From: Pedobacter sp. MC2016-15
GTDB taxonomy: Bacteria; Bacteroidota; Bacteroidia; Sphingobacteriales; Sphingobacteriaceae
Reading direction: 5' to 3'
NCBI RefSeq assembly: GCF_026239695.1
Contig: NZ_JAPIVS010000005.1
Location: 1-64,000, forward strand
DNA length: 64,000 nucleotides
Shown here in pieces: positions 11,826 through 30,637 of this stretch. Each line of letters starts with the position of its first letter. Position 1 is the first letter of the stretch. Made by a program: the position numbers and the translations under genes. The notes below the pieces were generated by a model, which was not told the origin of the DNA, made no database searches, and saw nothing but the letters and a program-made list of their open reading frames with translations.

Positions 11826-13708
11826 TCAGCCTTCATCACGCTCACTTTAAGGTGTGATGCATTTTTTCCCTCTGCGTATACTTTGTGCGTCGCCTTTTGG
11901 AAGTCGGCTTCTGTAGCTTTATAAATATTTACAAATTTTTGCGGGTTACGGTCAACCAGTGGAAACCAGGAGCTTTGCACCTGAACCATGATACGGTGGC
12001 CCTTTTTGAAACAGTGTGCGGCATCCTGCATATCAAATTTTACTTCCGTAATTTCTCCGGGTACCATTGCCTCCGGCGCAGTAAAACTGTTCCTGAATTT
12101 GGAGCGCATCACCTCTCCGCGCACCAGCTGCTGGAAGCCACCCATCTTTGTACCAGGAACAGGGCTGTCATTAGGGGCATCACCAGGATATACATCAATC
12201 AGTTTCACCACGAAATCTGCATCAGTACCAGTAGTTGAAACAAACAGATCTGCAAGTACATTTCCTGAGATAACCACATCGTTCTCCAGTGGATCTGTCT
12301 GATAAACCAGCACATCCGGACGCGAGGCTGCAAAACGCTGATCTTCGTACATGAAATCGCTTCCGCGGTCTATCCTGATCTCTTTGGTATAAGGAACCGG
12401 TTTGGCAGGATCACTGATGTATTCATCAAATCCTTCAGCTCCTGATTGTGGCGCTTCAAATGAGAGCTTGCCATTGGCGTGGAAGTAAAGATTTTTGTCC
12501 TGAGCTTCCAGAGGTGGCCAGGCGGAGTATTTTTTCCATTCGTTAGAGCCCGTTTCAAATATATTGGCCTTTGCCAGTCCGGGTGAAGCCATTCCTTTCA
12601 GATAATGGTTAAAAAATGCCAGTTCTATCTGTTCGCGGTAAAAAGGCCCGGTATCAGAATGGAAGCGCACGTTACCCAGCGCATTGTTGTTACCGCGGGT
12701 CCAGCTTCCATGTGTCCAGGGACCCATCACCAGGTAATTTGCCGCTGAAGGTTTGTTCTTTTCAGCACCGGCAAAAGTTTTCAGCGGTCCGTATAAATCC
12801 TCCTGGTCGAACCAGCCGCCTACGGTCATCATTGCAGGTTTAACATTCTTAAGATGTTGCGCTGCATTACGAGCTGCCCAGAAGGAGGTATAACTTTCAT
12901 TCTCCATCATCTCGTTCCAGATCTTGTTTTTACCCTTGAAATATTTTTCGTTTACATTTTTCAGAGGGCCCAGTTTCAGGTAGAAGTCGTAAGCATCAGG
13001 GGTTCCGTATTCAGCAAATGATGGTGCACGTTCTGGCGTAGGCTCAGGTCTTTCAGCACCGTAATAGGATAAGAAAGAGAAGGTGCCCATCAGGAAGAAC
13101 GCACCATTGTGGTGACGATCATCCCCCATAAACCAGTCGGTCACGGGTGCCTGCGGGGAGGCGGCCTTCAATGCAGGATGCGCATCAATGGCGGTCATGG
13201 TGGTATAAAACCCAGGTGCAGAAATTCCCCAGGTACCTACTTTTCCACTGTTATGCGGAACATTCTTTACCAGCCAGTCGATCGTATCATAGGTGTCAGA
13301 ACTTTCATCGATCTCAGTTTTCTTCTTTTTATTGGGAATATAGGGTCTGGTAGCTACAAATTCGCCCTCAGACATATAACGTCCTCTTACATCCTGATAA
13401 ACAAAAATATATCCTTCTTTTGCGAACAACATAGAAGGGCCGAGGCTCAGTTTGTATTCATTTTCACCGTAAGGTCCTGCGCTATAGGGCGTGCGGTTGA
13501 ACATGATGGGATACTTTTTTGTCTCATCTTTGGGAACATAGATCACAGTATACAGCTTTGCTCCATCCCGCATAGGAACCTGTTTTTCGAGTTTCTGATA
13601 ATGTTCCCGGATATATATAGAATCCTGTTGAACAGTTACCGGGCGCTGTGCCCATGCACCTAAAGAAAGAACTGACATAGCAGCGGATAAGATAAATTTG
13701 TTTTGCAT
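11822..13708 (-). CDS. CocE/NonD family hydrolase (alpha-amino-acid ester hydrolase-like, S15 fold)
   Basis: 628 residues. A signal peptide ends near G-A-W-A-Q. The S15/CocE alpha/beta-hydrolase domain starts with V-P-M-R-D-G-A-K-L-Y-T and contains Q-D-V-R-G-R-Y, Y-D-T-I-D-W-L-V-K-N and G-T-W-G-I-S-A-P-G, where the Ser of G-I-S-A is the expected nucleophile. V-M-G-P-W-T-H-G supplies the His region. The C-terminal jelly-roll (PepX C-like) holds the D-A-D-F-V-V-K-L-I-D-V motif. Families of this type hydrolyse alpha-amino-acid esters, beta-lactam side chains or X-Pro peptides in the periplasm; the Y-D-T-I-D-W-L form points to the amino-acid-ester-hydrolase branch. Single gene, divergent from the MFS gene. 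Confidence 0.9.
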   Translation of the reverse strand: MQNKFILSAAMSVLSLGAWAQRPVTVQQDSIYIREHYQKLEKQVPMRDGAKLYTVIYVPKDETKKYPIMFNRTPYSAGPYGENEYKLSLGPSMLFAKEGYIFVYQDVRGRYMSEGEFVATRPYIPNKKKKTEIDESSDTYDTIDWLVKNVPHNSGKVGTWGISAPGFYTTMTAIDAHPALKAASPQAPVTDWFMGDDRHHNGAFFLMGTFSFLSYYGAERPEPTPERAPSFAEYGTPDAYDFYLKLGPLKNVNEKYFKGKNKIWNEMMENESYTSFWAARNAAQHLKNVKPAMMTVGGWFDQEDLYGPLKTFAGAEKNKPSAANYLVMGPWTHGSWTRGNNNALGNVRFHSDTGPFYREQIELAFFNHYLKGMASPGLAKANIFETGSNEWKKYSAWPPLEAQDKNLYFHANGKLSFEAPQSGAEGFDEYISDPAKPVPYTKEIRIDRGSDFMYEDQRFAASRPDVLVYQTDPLENDVVISGNVLADLFVSTTGTDADFVVKLIDVYPGDAPNDSPVPGTKMGGFQQLVRGEVMRSKFRNSFTAPEAMVPGEITEVKFDMQDAAHCFKKGHRIMVQVQSSWFPLVDRNPQKFVNIYKATEADFQKATHKVYAEGKNASHLKVSVMKAD

Positions 13709-27203: not shown

Positions 27204-27244
27204 ATCCCCACTTATGGGGATAAGTTTGATCGGTATTGGGGATA
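27204..27244. promoter_or_regulatory. Dyad ATCCCC-N6-GGGGAT plus a direct TGGGGATA box
   Basis: ATCCCCA (27204-27210), four bases, then TGGGGAT (27215-27221) form a 7-4-7 inverted repeat. A further TGGGGATA begins at 27237, 22 bases (two helical turns) after the first TGGGGATA at 27215. The same arrangement recurs at 29112-29150. It lies between the divergent amidase and glutaminase genes, about 265 bp before the glutaminase. A likely binding site for the LuxR-type regulator encoded downstream; binding itself is inference. Confidence 0.65.
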
Positions 27245-27378
27245 TAGTAAGCCTCAGCTTATCATGATATTTGTATTACTCATTAAATGATCATCACCTC
27301 TACGGTTAATCTAAATGTAATCGGGTAGGTGAGCGTCTTTATCGGTTCAATAAATTTAGTAAGTTTTAGTTCAGTCTG

Positions 27379-27401
27379 ATGGCTCCCCGGGAGGGAGCCA
27401 T
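27379..27401 (+). promoter_or_regulatory. 9-bp hairpin in the glutaminase upstream region
   Basis: ATGGCTCCC (27379-27387) pairs with GGGAGCCAT (27393-27401) across CGGGA. T-rich sequence follows but without a real T tract. It may be a leader hairpin upstream of the second dyad, or the end of a short transcript. Confidence 0.5.
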
Positions 27402-27434
27402 TTGCTGTTTCAGTTCCCTGTCAACCAAAAGGGT

Positions 27435-27452
27435 ATCCCCTGAAAGGGGGAT
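27435..27452. promoter_or_regulatory. Third ATCCCC-N6-GGGGAT dyad, close to the glutaminase start
   Basis: ATCCCC (27435-27440), six bases (TGAAAG), GGGGAT (27447-27452) give the same arms and spacing as the copies at 27204 and 29112. Its right arm also forms part of the terminator-like stem at 27443-27466, so as RNA the two foldings exclude each other. Read as DNA it is an operator; read as RNA it is an antiterminator. Confidence 0.6.
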
Positions 27453-27469
27453 GAAGAACCCCCTTTTTT
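27443..27469 (+). terminator. Terminator-like hairpin in the presumed glutaminase leader
   Basis: AAAGGGGG (27443-27450) pairs with CCCCCTTT (27459-27466) across ATGAAGAA, ending in six T (27464-27469). It precedes the glutaminase coding region with no gene ending immediately upstream, so it would act as an attenuator if transcription begins further left. The TTG at 27468 lies in its T tract, which argues against that start codon. Confidence 0.65.
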
Positions 27470-27509
27470 GGAGATGTTACGGCGCTTCCTTTATACCGAA
27501 CTTTGCCCT

Positions 27510-29108
27510 ATGGCTACTACAGAAAAAAAACAGGAAAAGATCAGGCTGAACGGGGCTGGAAAGACCGATTTTAACGGTATGATGGAAGTTGAATACAGTT
27601 ATCTCTATGAATGCCTGCGAAAAGGGAAAGACGCCAGTATTTATTTTTCAGATCTTTTTACTGCGCTTCATGCAGTAGGGATCATGGAGAATGACCCCAG
27701 GTTAAAGCTCGATCTCTCTGACCTGAATATCGCATCGCAATTACTGGAATATTCGAAATTTAAAGATATTATCAAACATAGCCTGGGTGGCATCATCAAG
27801 GATGCGATACAGGGAAACCTGATCATTCCCGATTTCGGTAGTTTCTGTAAGGAGATTACAGAGATTTATGAGGTAACCAATCAGAATAAGGGCGGCAATG
27901 TGGCAACTTACATCCCGCAACTGAGCCGTGTAGACCCCAATAAATACGCGATCTCGATTTGTACCGTGAGTGGACAGCAGTTTTCTATCGGCGACAGTAA
28001 CGAGGATTTTTGTATACAGTCTATCTGCAAACCGGTGAACTATTGTATGGTACTTGAGGAACACGGCGAAGAGATCGTTCATCAGCATATCGGTCGCGAA
28101 CCGAGTGGAATAGGCTTTAACGGTTTGGTGCTCAATGAAAACAATCTGCCCCATAATCCCATGATCAACGCCGGTGCGATCATGGCCTGTTCGCTGATCA
28201 GTCCTGATCTGGAAATGGCCGACCGTTTTGATCATGTACTTAATTTCTGGAATAAGATCACCGGCAATCAAAATGCGCTGGGATTTAATAATTCGGTTTA
28301 TCTTTCAGAAAAGGAAACGGCCGACCGGAATTTTGCACTCGGCTACTATATGAAGGAAAAAGGAGCTTTTCCACAACATACGAATCTCTTAAATACGCTG
28401 GAATTTTATTTTCAGTGCTGTTCCATTCAGACGGATACCAATGCGATGGCCGTCGCGGCAGCTACGCTTGCAAATTCAGGGATATGTCCTCTCACCAATG
28501 AACGCGCAATGGAGAATAATACGGTTAAAAACTGTCTTTCTCTGATGAACTCCTGTGGAATGTATGACTTTTCCGGAGAATTTGCCTTCACCATAGGCCT
28601 GCCCGCAAAAAGCGGTGTAGCCGGTGGGCTGATGCTGGTGATTCCAAACCTGATGGGCATAGCAATATGGTCGCCAAAGCTGGACAAATCGGGAAACTCT
28701 GTGAAAGGCATTGAATTTTCAAAGGAACTCGTGAAACGTTATAATTTCCATAGCTATGACAGTCTGAATCTGAACAATCCTGATAAAAAAGATCCCCGGC
28801 TGAAAAGAAACGAAGCAAAAATTGACGATGCAATGAGCTTATGCTGGGCAGCAGCCGAAGGTAATCTGCTGGAAGTGCAGCATCTCTATGCCAGGGGCAT
28901 CAATATCAATATGGCTGATTATGATGGCAGAACTGCATTGCACCTGGCGGCATCAGGGGGGCATGAGCAGGTGATTGCTTATCTGATTGATAAAGGCGTC
29001 GACTTAAATCCGCGCGACCGGTGGGGGAATACTCCACTTGGGGATGCCTATAAAGAGAACCATCAGGGTACCATCCTTTTACTTGAAGCCAACAATGCTC
29101 TACGATAA
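27510..29108 (+). CDS. glsA: Glutaminase with C-terminal ankyrin repeats
   Basis: Starts considered: TTG 27468 (inside a terminator-like hairpin), ATG 27474 and ATG 27510; the last gives 532 residues beginning M-A-T-T-E-K-K. A helical N-terminal region (L-F-T-A-L-H-A-V-G-I, EF-hand-like as in animal glutaminases) precedes the serine-dependent beta-lactamase-fold glutaminase domain. That domain has Y-I-P-Q-L, S-I-C-K-P-V (nucleophile Ser171), N-A-G-A-I-M, and the S-G-V-A-G-G region. About 65 residues of ankyrin repeats close the protein (G-R-T-A-L-H-L-A-A-S-G-G-H and W-G-N-T-P-L-G-D-A). Glutaminase plus ankyrin is the layout of mammalian GLS; many bacterial enzymes lack both flanking parts. 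Reaction: L-glutamine to L-glutamate and ammonia, cytoplasmic. The two-component genes follow after 59 bp. Confidence 0.92.
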   Translation: MATTEKKQEKIRLNGAGKTDFNGMMEVEYSYLYECLRKGKDASIYFSDLFTALHAVGIMENDPRLKLDLSDLNIASQLLEYSKFKDIIKHSLGGIIKDAIQGNLIIPDFGSFCKEITEIYEVTNQNKGGNVATYIPQLSRVDPNKYAISICTVSGQQFSIGDSNEDFCIQSICKPVNYCMVLEEHGEEIVHQHIGREPSGIGFNGLVLNENNLPHNPMINAGAIMACSLISPDLEMADRFDHVLNFWNKITGNQNALGFNNSVYLSEKETADRNFALGYYMKEKGAFPQHTNLLNTLEFYFQCCSIQTDTNAMAVAAATLANSGICPLTNERAMENNTVKNCLSLMNSCGMYDFSGEFAFTIGLPAKSGVAGGLMLVIPNLMGIAIWSPKLDKSGNSVKGIEFSKELVKRYNFHSYDSLNLNNPDKKDPRLKRNEAKIDDAMSLCWAAAEGNLLEVQHLYARGININMADYDGRTALHLAASGGHEQVIAYLIDKGVDLNPRDRWGNTPLGDAYKENHQGTILLLEANNALR

Positions 29109-29111
29109 CAT

Positions 29112-29150
29112 ATCCCCACTTTTGGGGATAAGAATGTTAATTATGGGGAT
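29112..29150. promoter_or_regulatory. ATCCCC-N6-GGGGAT dyad plus direct TGGGGAT box before the histidine kinase
   Basis: ATCCCCA (29112-29118), CTTT, TGGGGAT (29123-29129), then TGGGGAT at 29144-29150, 21 bases from the first. Outer T/A bases extend the dyad to 8 bp. The layout copies 27204-27244 almost exactly (spacers CTTT versus CTTA; boxes 21 versus 22 bases apart). It fills the gap between glutaminase and kinase, ending 17 bases before the ATG at 29168. Probable autoregulatory operator. Confidence 0.68.
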
Positions 29151-29167
29151 ATGTATTGATCATAAAT

Positions 29168-29968
29168 ATGATGACATTTGTAGTTCTGATGGTGATTCAT
29201 AACAAGCATGTGGCTGGAACACTTGACCAGGCTACGCACAGTTTAATTTCATGGTTCTTTATCCTCACGGCCATATTTGTGATCAGTCTTGCTATTATTT
29301 TATACCGTTACAGGATCAGGGAACTGCTCAACAGGCAGGAAGTAAGAAATCGCATTGCTGTGGATCTTCATGATAACATCGGCTCTACCCTGAGCAGTAT
29401 TTCGGTATATAGCCAGGTAGCTAAAATCTATCAGCAACAGCAAAATCATCATCAACTGAATAAGGTGCTGGACACGATAGGCGAAACTGCCAGTGAAATG
29501 ATCAGCGAGATGGGTGATATCGTCTGGGCGATTAATCCCAATAATGACCATATGAGCAGTATTTACAGCAGAATGGATTCTTATGCCAGGCCGGTGTGTA
29601 AAGCAAAGAATATAAACTTCAATCTGCATTGTGACCCTAAGGTGCCATTCCTTAAACTGGAAATGAATATCAGAAAGAATATTTATCTTATTTTTAAAGA
29701 AGCAATTAATAATGCGCTAAAATATGCTGACTGCGAAGTGATTACGGTAAAGCTTTACCTTGTGGATGCTGTCCTGATTTTAAGTGTTCATGATGATGGC
29801 GCTGGCTTTGAATACCATAGCCGTCTTGAAAATGAGGAGCAGACACTTTCTGGCAATGGTTTGCGTAATATGAAAATGCGTGCAGATGAAATCTTTGCCC
29901 AATTAAAGATAATAAGCGCTAAAAATGGGATGGGGACCCAAATTGAAGTGCAATATAGAATCCCCTGA
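29168..29968 (+). CDS. Sensor histidine kinase, NarX/LiaS-like (HisKA_3)
   Basis: ATG 29168 gives 266 residues; a TTG at 29156 would place the start against the operator box. The protein has a short hydrophobic N-terminus, one clear membrane segment (W-F-F-I-L-T-A-I-F-V-I-S-L-A-I-I-L-Y), then HisKA_3 with the phospho-accepting His68 in D-L-H-D-N-I-G-S-T-L-S. The HATPase_c domain follows: N box E-A-I-N-N-A-L-K-Y, G1 D-D-G-A-G-F, and G-N-G-L-R-N-M-K-M-R-A. A long external domain is missing, so the signal is probably read in or near the membrane. It pairs with the LuxR-type regulator 24 bp downstream. Confidence 0.9.
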   Translation: MMTFVVLMVIHNKHVAGTLDQATHSLISWFFILTAIFVISLAIILYRYRIRELLNRQEVRNRIAVDLHDNIGSTLSSISVYSQVAKIYQQQQNHHQLNKVLDTIGETASEMISEMGDIVWAINPNNDHMSSIYSRMDSYARPVCKAKNINFNLHCDPKVPFLKLEMNIRKNIYLIFKEAINNALKYADCEVITVKLYLVDAVLILSVHDDGAGFEYHSRLENEEQTLSGNGLRNMKMRADEIFAQLKIISAKNGMGTQIEVQYRIP

Positions 29969-29992: not shown

Positions 29993-30637
29993 ATGAGTTT
30001 ACGCATAGCAATTTTTGATGATAATAAAAACATCAGGCAAAGTATCACTTTGCTGATCAGTACAAATCCGGATATGGAAGTGGTTGGCTCTTTTGGGAAT
30101 GTGCTCAATTGTGTGAACGACTGCCTCAAATGTGAACCTGATATTGTACTTATGGATATTCAGATGCCCGGAATGAGTGGCATTGAAGCAGTACAGCTGC
30201 TCAAACAGGAGCTGCCTACTATACAAATTCTCATGCAGACGGTCTTTGAGGATGATGACAGGGTTTTTGATGCGATCTGCGCCGGTGCCTCCGGGTATGT
30301 GTTAAAAGACGACCTCAAAAATAAACTCATCGATGCCATTAAGGAACTGCATTTCGGAGGCTCTCCAATGAGCCCGAGTATTGCCCGTAAAGTGATCAAC
30401 AAGCTGCAGATTCCTGAAAAGATCAGTAAATCAACTGTCAATGAATATAAGCTCACTCCCAGGGAAAAGGAAGTGTTGCTATGTATTGTGAATGGCTTGA
30501 GTTATAAAATGGTAGCAGCAGAGTTGTTTATCAGTTATGAAACAGTACGCAGTCATATCAAAAAGATCTACGAAAAACTGCATGTTGCTTCACTTACAGA
30601 AGCGGTCGCAAAAGCGATAAAGCAGGGTATTGTTTAA
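29993..30637 (+). CDS. LuxR/NarL-family response regulator
   Basis: 214 residues. Receiver: acidic pair D9-D10, phospho-Asp55 in V-L-M-D-I-Q-M-P-G, and the K in G-Y-V-L-K-D. The output is a LuxR-type HTH: L-T-P-R-E-K-E-V-L-L-C-I-V-N-G-L-S-Y-K-M-V-A, and S-Y-E-T-V-R-S-H-I-K-K-I-Y-E-K-L. Regulators of this family bind inverted repeats as dimers, so the 7-4-7 dyads found before the glutaminase and the kinase are natural candidate targets. Cognate kinase is encoded 24 bp upstream. The stop overlaps the convergent M23 gene by 4 bases. Confidence 0.93.
   Translation: MSLRIAIFDDNKNIRQSITLLISTNPDMEVVGSFGNVLNCVNDCLKCEPDIVLMDIQMPGMSGIEAVQLLKQELPTIQILMQTVFEDDDRVFDAICAGASGYVLKDDLKNKLIDAIKELHFGGSPMSPSIARKVINKLQIPEKISKSTVNEYKLTPREKEVLLCIVNGLSYKMVAAELFISYETVRSHIKKIYEKLHVASLTEAVAKAIKQGIV

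Follow-up and report, generated by a model that had tools for sequence, protein, structure and literature searches.

Inverted repeats before glutaminase and two-component genes in Pedobacter as candidate operators of a LuxR-type response regulator

Introduction

Autoregulated two-component regulators of the NarL, FixJ and VraR type carry a receiver and a GerE domain, work with a HisKA_3 partner kinase and have an operator before their own operon. The boxes of the LuxR and TraR quorum-sensing regulators are a second point of reference: the TraR box is an inverted repeat of the form 6-6-6, and the lux box occupies a class II position near -42. A third is the group of Bacteroidota sensor kinases that combine a propeller with a Y_Y_Y domain. 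Bacteroidota have many LuxR-type two-component systems, for few of which, to our knowledge, an operator has been identified.

The locus described here lies in a 64,000-nucleotide stretch of Pedobacter sp. MC2016-15 DNA (the window) and resembles each of these systems in part. It has the domain architecture of the NarL, FixJ and VraR type, but the putative operator is ATCCCC-N6-GGGGAT, placed at a Bacteroidota -33/-7 promoter. The 6-6-6 repeat and its class II position near -42 are shared with the LuxR and TraR boxes; those regulators, however, bind acyl-homoserine lactones, whereas the regulator encoded here (RR1) has a phosphoreceiver domain instead and no such binding domain. The kinase orthologues of two relatives, genomes G308 and G229, are exactly of the propeller and Y_Y_Y type, but the LuxR-type regulator is a separate protein and the propeller and Y_Y_Y part is missing from the window kinase. 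No description of the motif or of the regulon was found by title in the literature searched, the coverage of which left most subscription papers outside.

Results

Three repeats in the window share one promoter geometry

Three exact copies of ATCCCC-N6-GGGGAT were located in the window, at 27204-27221, 27435-27452 and 29112-29129, and no others were present there, while a mean of 0.00 was expected from 100 dinucleotide shuffles. The preliminary description of this DNA had reported the same three copies and a direct TGGGGAT box 21-22 bases downstream of two of them; measured from the start of one GGGGAT to the start of the next, this distance was 22 bp for copy 1 and 21 bp for copy 3. Copy 2 proved to have a box of its own, TGGAGAT, 23 bp downstream (27469-27475), which together with ACCCCC at 27458 makes up a second dyad with two mismatches. 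A single design is repeated three times, consisting of a distal dyad, a box 21-23 bp further on, exactly 26 nt and the tetranucleotide TTTG. The proximal boxes (GGGGAT, GGAGAT and GGGGAT) are at 27238, 27470 and 29145 and the TTTG at 27270, 27502 and 29177. GG(A/G)GAT-N26-TTTG was found three times in the window, always at these sites, and each other spacing from 18 to 34 gave 0 or 1 occurrence per strand. The fixed spacing to the promoter that characterizes class II promoters was found at all three sites.

The -7 box of Bacteroidota, TAnnTTTG, spans -12 to -5 in Flavobacterium psychrophilum, as given in PMC9723704, and the TTTG of the window sites is interpreted as the end of this box. On this scale, a dyad with the proximal box as its right half has a predicted centre of -43.5 and the distal dyads have predicted centres near -65.

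All features of the three sites are on the plus strand. Site 1 comprises the exact distal dyad ATCCCC-ACTTAT-GGGGAT (27204-27221), a proximal GGGGAT half-site (27238-27243; predicted -40 to -35 on this scale) and, 26 nt after the latter, the -7 box GATATTTG (27266-27273). Transcription is predicted by the same scale to start at about 27278, giving a leader of 232 nt. Site 2 has the exact distal dyad ATCCCC-TGAAAG-GGGGAT (27435-27452), the proximal dyad ACCCCC-TTTTTT-GGAGAT (27458-27475) with its two mismatches, and the -7 box GAACTTTG (27498-27505) 26 nt after the box; the predicted start, again on that scale, is 27510, where the glutaminase ATG begins, and this promoter would be leaderless. 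Site 3 consists of the exact distal dyad ATCCCC-ACTTTT-GGGGAT (29112-29129), the proximal GGGGAT box (29145-29150) and, 26 nt after it, the -7 box GACATTTG (29173-29180), with a start predicted likewise at about 29185. It immediately precedes the shortened kinase gene, and 12 nt separate the TTTG (from 29177) from the first base of the ATG (29189).

The glutaminase sites are conserved in two relatives

The gene order is a divergent upstream amidase, glutaminase, HisKA_3 kinase and receiver-GerE regulator. The glutaminase A gene (27510-29108, plus strand) encodes ankyrin repeats and an N-terminal EF-hand-like domain by Pfam, and its product scored above the cut-off of TIGR03814. Among 145 genomes of the genus, close orthologues of the kinase, the regulator and the glutaminase co-occurred in two others, G308 and G229, in the same order, glutaminase orthologues having been sought at E 1e-100 only. 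Glutaminase identity was 90% in G308 and 85% in G229.

The preliminary description had made conservation in relatives with the same genes a test of the motif. Before glutaminase, sites 1 and 2 and their -7 boxes were kept in both relatives while much of the intervening sequence diverged, although the three genomes are close relatives and the shared sites are not independent. The distal dyad of site 1 has one mismatch in G308 and one in G229, and its proximal half-site and ATATTTGTAT in the -7 box are invariant in the three species. The distal dyad of site 2 is exact in both relatives, its proximal dyad has two mismatches in G308 and one in G229, and TTTG-N4-ATG is kept in all three. Site 3, however, has no counterpart in G308, and in G229 it is represented by a dyad with two mismatches and a kept box, with the TTTG no longer at 26 nt.

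A further conserved element with a hairpin, ATGGCTCCC...GGGAGCCAT, was seen in the leader between sites 1 and 2 (27334-27410, plus strand), with blocks that are invariant in the three species; its counterparts are L039 2815-2893 and L040, minus strand, near 12400-12480. It is possible that this block is an attenuator, a small RNA or an extra promoter.

The window kinase lacks the sensor of its orthologues

The kinase gene (29189-29968, plus strand) lies directly upstream of the regulator gene and encodes one membrane segment, a HisKA_3 domain (PF07730, 42.8 bits) and HATPase_c. The orthologues in G308 and G229 are 1006 and 994 residues long and carry Reg_prop and Y_Y_Y sensor domains. The window kinase matches them, at 78-82% identity, only from residue 768 onwards; some 770 N-terminal sensor residues are gone, and by Pfam both Reg_prop and Y_Y_Y, present in the G308 orthologue, are absent. 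Approximately 90 bases ahead of the membrane segment match both relatives poorly. Comparison of the core with G308 gave a dN of 0.111 and a dS of 1.59, values which indicate that the core is still under purifying selection despite the loss of the sensor. The three pairwise dN values were 0.111, 0.128 and 0.060, and by hand calculation, with dS against G229 saturated, approximately four times as many replacements fall on the window kinase branch as on the G308 branch. As the sensor is missing, the signal cannot be guessed from this kinase.

The adjacent gene (29993-30637, plus strand) encodes RR1, a NarL/LuxR-type response regulator and the proposed binder of the dyad. Its receiver (PF00072, 75.8 bits) and GerE domain (PF00196, 64.8 bits) both scored above cut-off, its closest solved structures are VraR and NarL, and it reached the curated cut-off of none of the 25 NCBIfam models among the matches listed. 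RR1 is 97-98% identical in G308 and G229, and its reading helix is ISYETVRSH.

The genome also holds an orphan propeller kinase (G000:C1:742525) and an orphan regulator, RR2 (G000:C11:353308), which map to one G229 neighbourhood type (L141), as if a former pair had been split. In this genome no dyad was found near either of the two genes.

The promoter design recurs throughout the genome

That there was no other full copy of the repeat, as first described, is true of the window and not of the genome: six exact dyads were found in 5,141,154 bases. G229 has three and G308 five, and reversed-pattern controls gave 0. A further 21 were spread over 17 of the remaining 142 genomes of the genus, with a maximum of two each. 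Eight of them share a single string, ATCCCCTGAAGGGGGGAT, occurring once in each of eight genomes (G203:C7:11873 and seven others); in the one case listed it is not exactly at the N26-TTTG spacing, and it possibly belongs to a repeat.

When dyad-N26-TTTG was sought with up to two mismatches, 19 sites were found in this genome and 31 in each of the two relatives, against one in each reversed-pattern control. The best of the other 142 genomes had 12 (G262) and the next eight, at a threshold that also admits a perfect dyad followed by a poor TTTG match. With up to three mismatches the number in this genome rose to 61, against 14 in the control. The preliminary description had proposed a local operator family in a compact, self-regulating glutaminase module; with approximately 20 places in the genome and 31 in each relative, the family is not local.

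Eighty of the 81 sites were read (G308:C4:36940 was left out). At 63 of the 80, a figure that stands without a chance baseline, an ORF of at least 100 aa starts within 250 nt and the site lies outside ORFs; four lie inside an ORF. The TA of TAnnTTTG was outside the search pattern. Of the 63 sites, 70% have A at the first of these two positions and 77% have T or C at the second, and the spacer is AT-rich; these preferences support the reading of TAnnTTTG as a promoter element. Among 28 oriented exact dyads taken without pre-selection, TTTG followed at 26 in three, at 47-49 in six (distal dyads) and at 32 in three. The last are the sites of a TetR gene in the three species, and these break the 26-nt rule. 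An exact dyad with a TGGGGAT box was confined to this genome (two sites), because the relatives differ by a mismatch and the pattern is too strict.

Predicted targets recurring in all three species were glutaminase, the TetR gene, DUF4397 proteins, flavin monooxygenase-like proteins, glycosyltransferases, DUF2807 proteins and a kinase paralogue, HK3. Glutamine synthetase, GXWXG, ICMT, YceI, GMC oxidoreductase, GH18 and others recurred in two of the three. The glutamine synthetase promoter has a dyad with one mismatch in G229 (C15:35986) and G308 (C4:171530); in this genome (G000:C12 near 101733) no dyad was found there within three mismatches, and only the proximal GGGGAT and the TTTG at 26 nt, counted by hand, are left. 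The regulator gene beside HK3 encodes a receiver domain only (125-128 aa) in all three species (L042 5529-5906, L043 7467-7844 and L044 5018-5404).

Related patterns were seen elsewhere. ATACCC-N6-GGGTAT-N26-TTTG recurs in genomes without the module (G222, G170, G227, G135 and others) and may be the binding site of a different regulator that shares this geometry. Several ATCACCnnAAAAGATGAT-N26-TTTG sites within the single genome G206 suggest yet another operator class.

The dyad accompanies the regulator across families

A scan of named genomes yielded 80 regulator loci, nine encoding regulators with 60-71% identity and 71 with 43-54%. The nine orthologue loci were from six Chitinophagales or Chitinophagaceae, one Mucilaginibacter bin, one Flavobacterium and one bin labelled Rhodoglobus. 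A dyad with at most one mismatch, starting 61-66 bp before the regulator ATG, was present in five of the nine and in none of the 71 (Fisher 5e-6, relatedness ignored). In a sixth, the Flavobacterium locus L067, an exact dyad precedes the kinase. A putative operator kept before the kinase or the regulator, as in an autoregulated operon, was found in these loci, and no dyad was present near the start of either gene in the remaining three (L063, L064 and L065, the first being a short contig). The preliminary description had asked whether the motif stays with this regulator, and to that extent it does. Overall, dyads with at most one mismatch numbered 13 in the 158,933 bases of the nine loci against five in the 1,349,890 bases of the other 71. 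The reading helix is exactly ISYETVRSH in eight of the nine orthologues and IGYETVRSH in L066, and it differs from ISYETVRSH in all five of the distant regulators that were aligned.

In the loci checked outside the three species, the dyad goes with the kinase and regulator genes and not with glutaminase, contrary to the first proposal of a glutaminase-bound motif. Glutaminase was nearby only in L067, and no dyad was found upstream of it there.

Two genomes with RR2-type regulators (G158 and G281, 66% and 64% identical) contained no exact dyads. A variant, ATCACC-N6-GGTGAT-N26-TTTG, was sought as a possible own operator of these genomes and occurred 14 times in G158 and 12 times in G281, against 5 and 2 in controls, numbers which many genomes equal.

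Discussion

The dyads are probably activator-binding sites of the regulator encoded at 29993, or of RR1 together with close paralogues that share its DNA-reading helix, serving a genome-wide regulon as well as the regulator's own operon. The initial suggestion that such a regulator reads the repeats is favoured by the position of the dyads at what look like regulated promoters, by a geometry that fits a LuxR-type dimer and by the company that the dyad keeps with the regulator across families; that RR1 binds them is a prediction from this pattern.

The genome-wide sites might instead belong to RR2, which is 59% identical to RR1, or to several paralogues, with RR1 controlling few or none of them. 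The reading helices of RR2 and RR3 are nearly the same as that of RR1, and in G158 and G281 RR2 shares its locus with transporter, nitroreductase-like, oxidoreductase and SDR genes, several of which have degenerate dyads upstream at the 26-nt spacing; a homologue of this transporter is a predicted target in the present genome. However, exact dyads follow the genomes that have RR1 and not those with RR2 only, and the RR2 of this genome has a deviating helix, ISYDTVRTH, and lacks a nearby dyad; ownership by paralogues in place of RR1 is rather unlikely. It is less likely still that a regulator of another family which reads 6-6-6 dyads near -41, for example of the Crp/Fnr type, binds the sites and that the kinase and regulator genes are simply among its targets. 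Crp sites (TGTGA-N6-TCACA) share the spacing and position of the dyads and the regulon is metabolically broad, but this reading is at odds with the fixed place of the dyad before this particular regulator gene in distant families.

Formation of RNA hairpins or terminators appears very improbable. Copy 2 (GGGGGATGAAGAACCCCCTTTTTT) is the best candidate, since folding is possible in the long transcript that would begin at site 1 and a T run comes next, but that run is broken by a G or shortened in relatives, and transcription is predicted to start downstream of copies 1 and 3. Folding of the leader was unremarkable (z -1.78, with 12 of 200 shuffles equally good), and no Rfam family was matched in the window by an RNA-family search. 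Short palindromes do occur, as the exact dyads in the other genomes of the genus illustrate, but chance repeats without function would have to arise where none is expected and adopt one geometry genome-wide, and they are contradicted by conservation; this explanation can be given almost no weight.

If the dyads are operators of RR1, phosphorylated dimers would bind them. The dimer nearest the promoter, at approximately -43.5 on the F. psychrophilum scale, would lie beside the -33 region of a sigma-A promoter and recruit RNA polymerase, so that class II activation is predicted rather than repression. A second dimer, bound two helical turns further upstream (approximately -65 on that scale), may strengthen binding cooperatively at the promoters of glutaminase and the kinase. 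Site 1 and the leaderless site 2 would drive glutaminase, and site 3 would drive the kinase-regulator pair and thereby create positive feedback. Roughly 20-30 genes across the genome would share this promoter design and form a regulon in the three related species. As the extracytoplasmic sensor is missing from the window kinase, this enzyme may be constitutive, or the phosphate may come from elsewhere.

A stronger version can be offered only speculatively and is, on balance, doubtful. Here a regulon of 20-30 promoters, covering glutamine synthesis and breakdown, glycosyltransferases and flavoenzymes, would be governed by a two-component system with positive feedback, the kinase of which has in this species shed a sensor of 770 residues, leaving a near-leaderless promoter on a membrane-kinase core; the result would be a signal-blind, self-sustaining switch with its operators kept. 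The circuit itself is of an ordinary kind, wider than the preliminary description supposed and with an unexpected sensor-less kinase.

A readable putative operator, promoters of fixed geometry and a list of predicted targets in three species make the family of this regulator open to direct tests. A kinase without its sensor, next to operators that are intact, represents a natural experiment on the purpose of the sensor domain.
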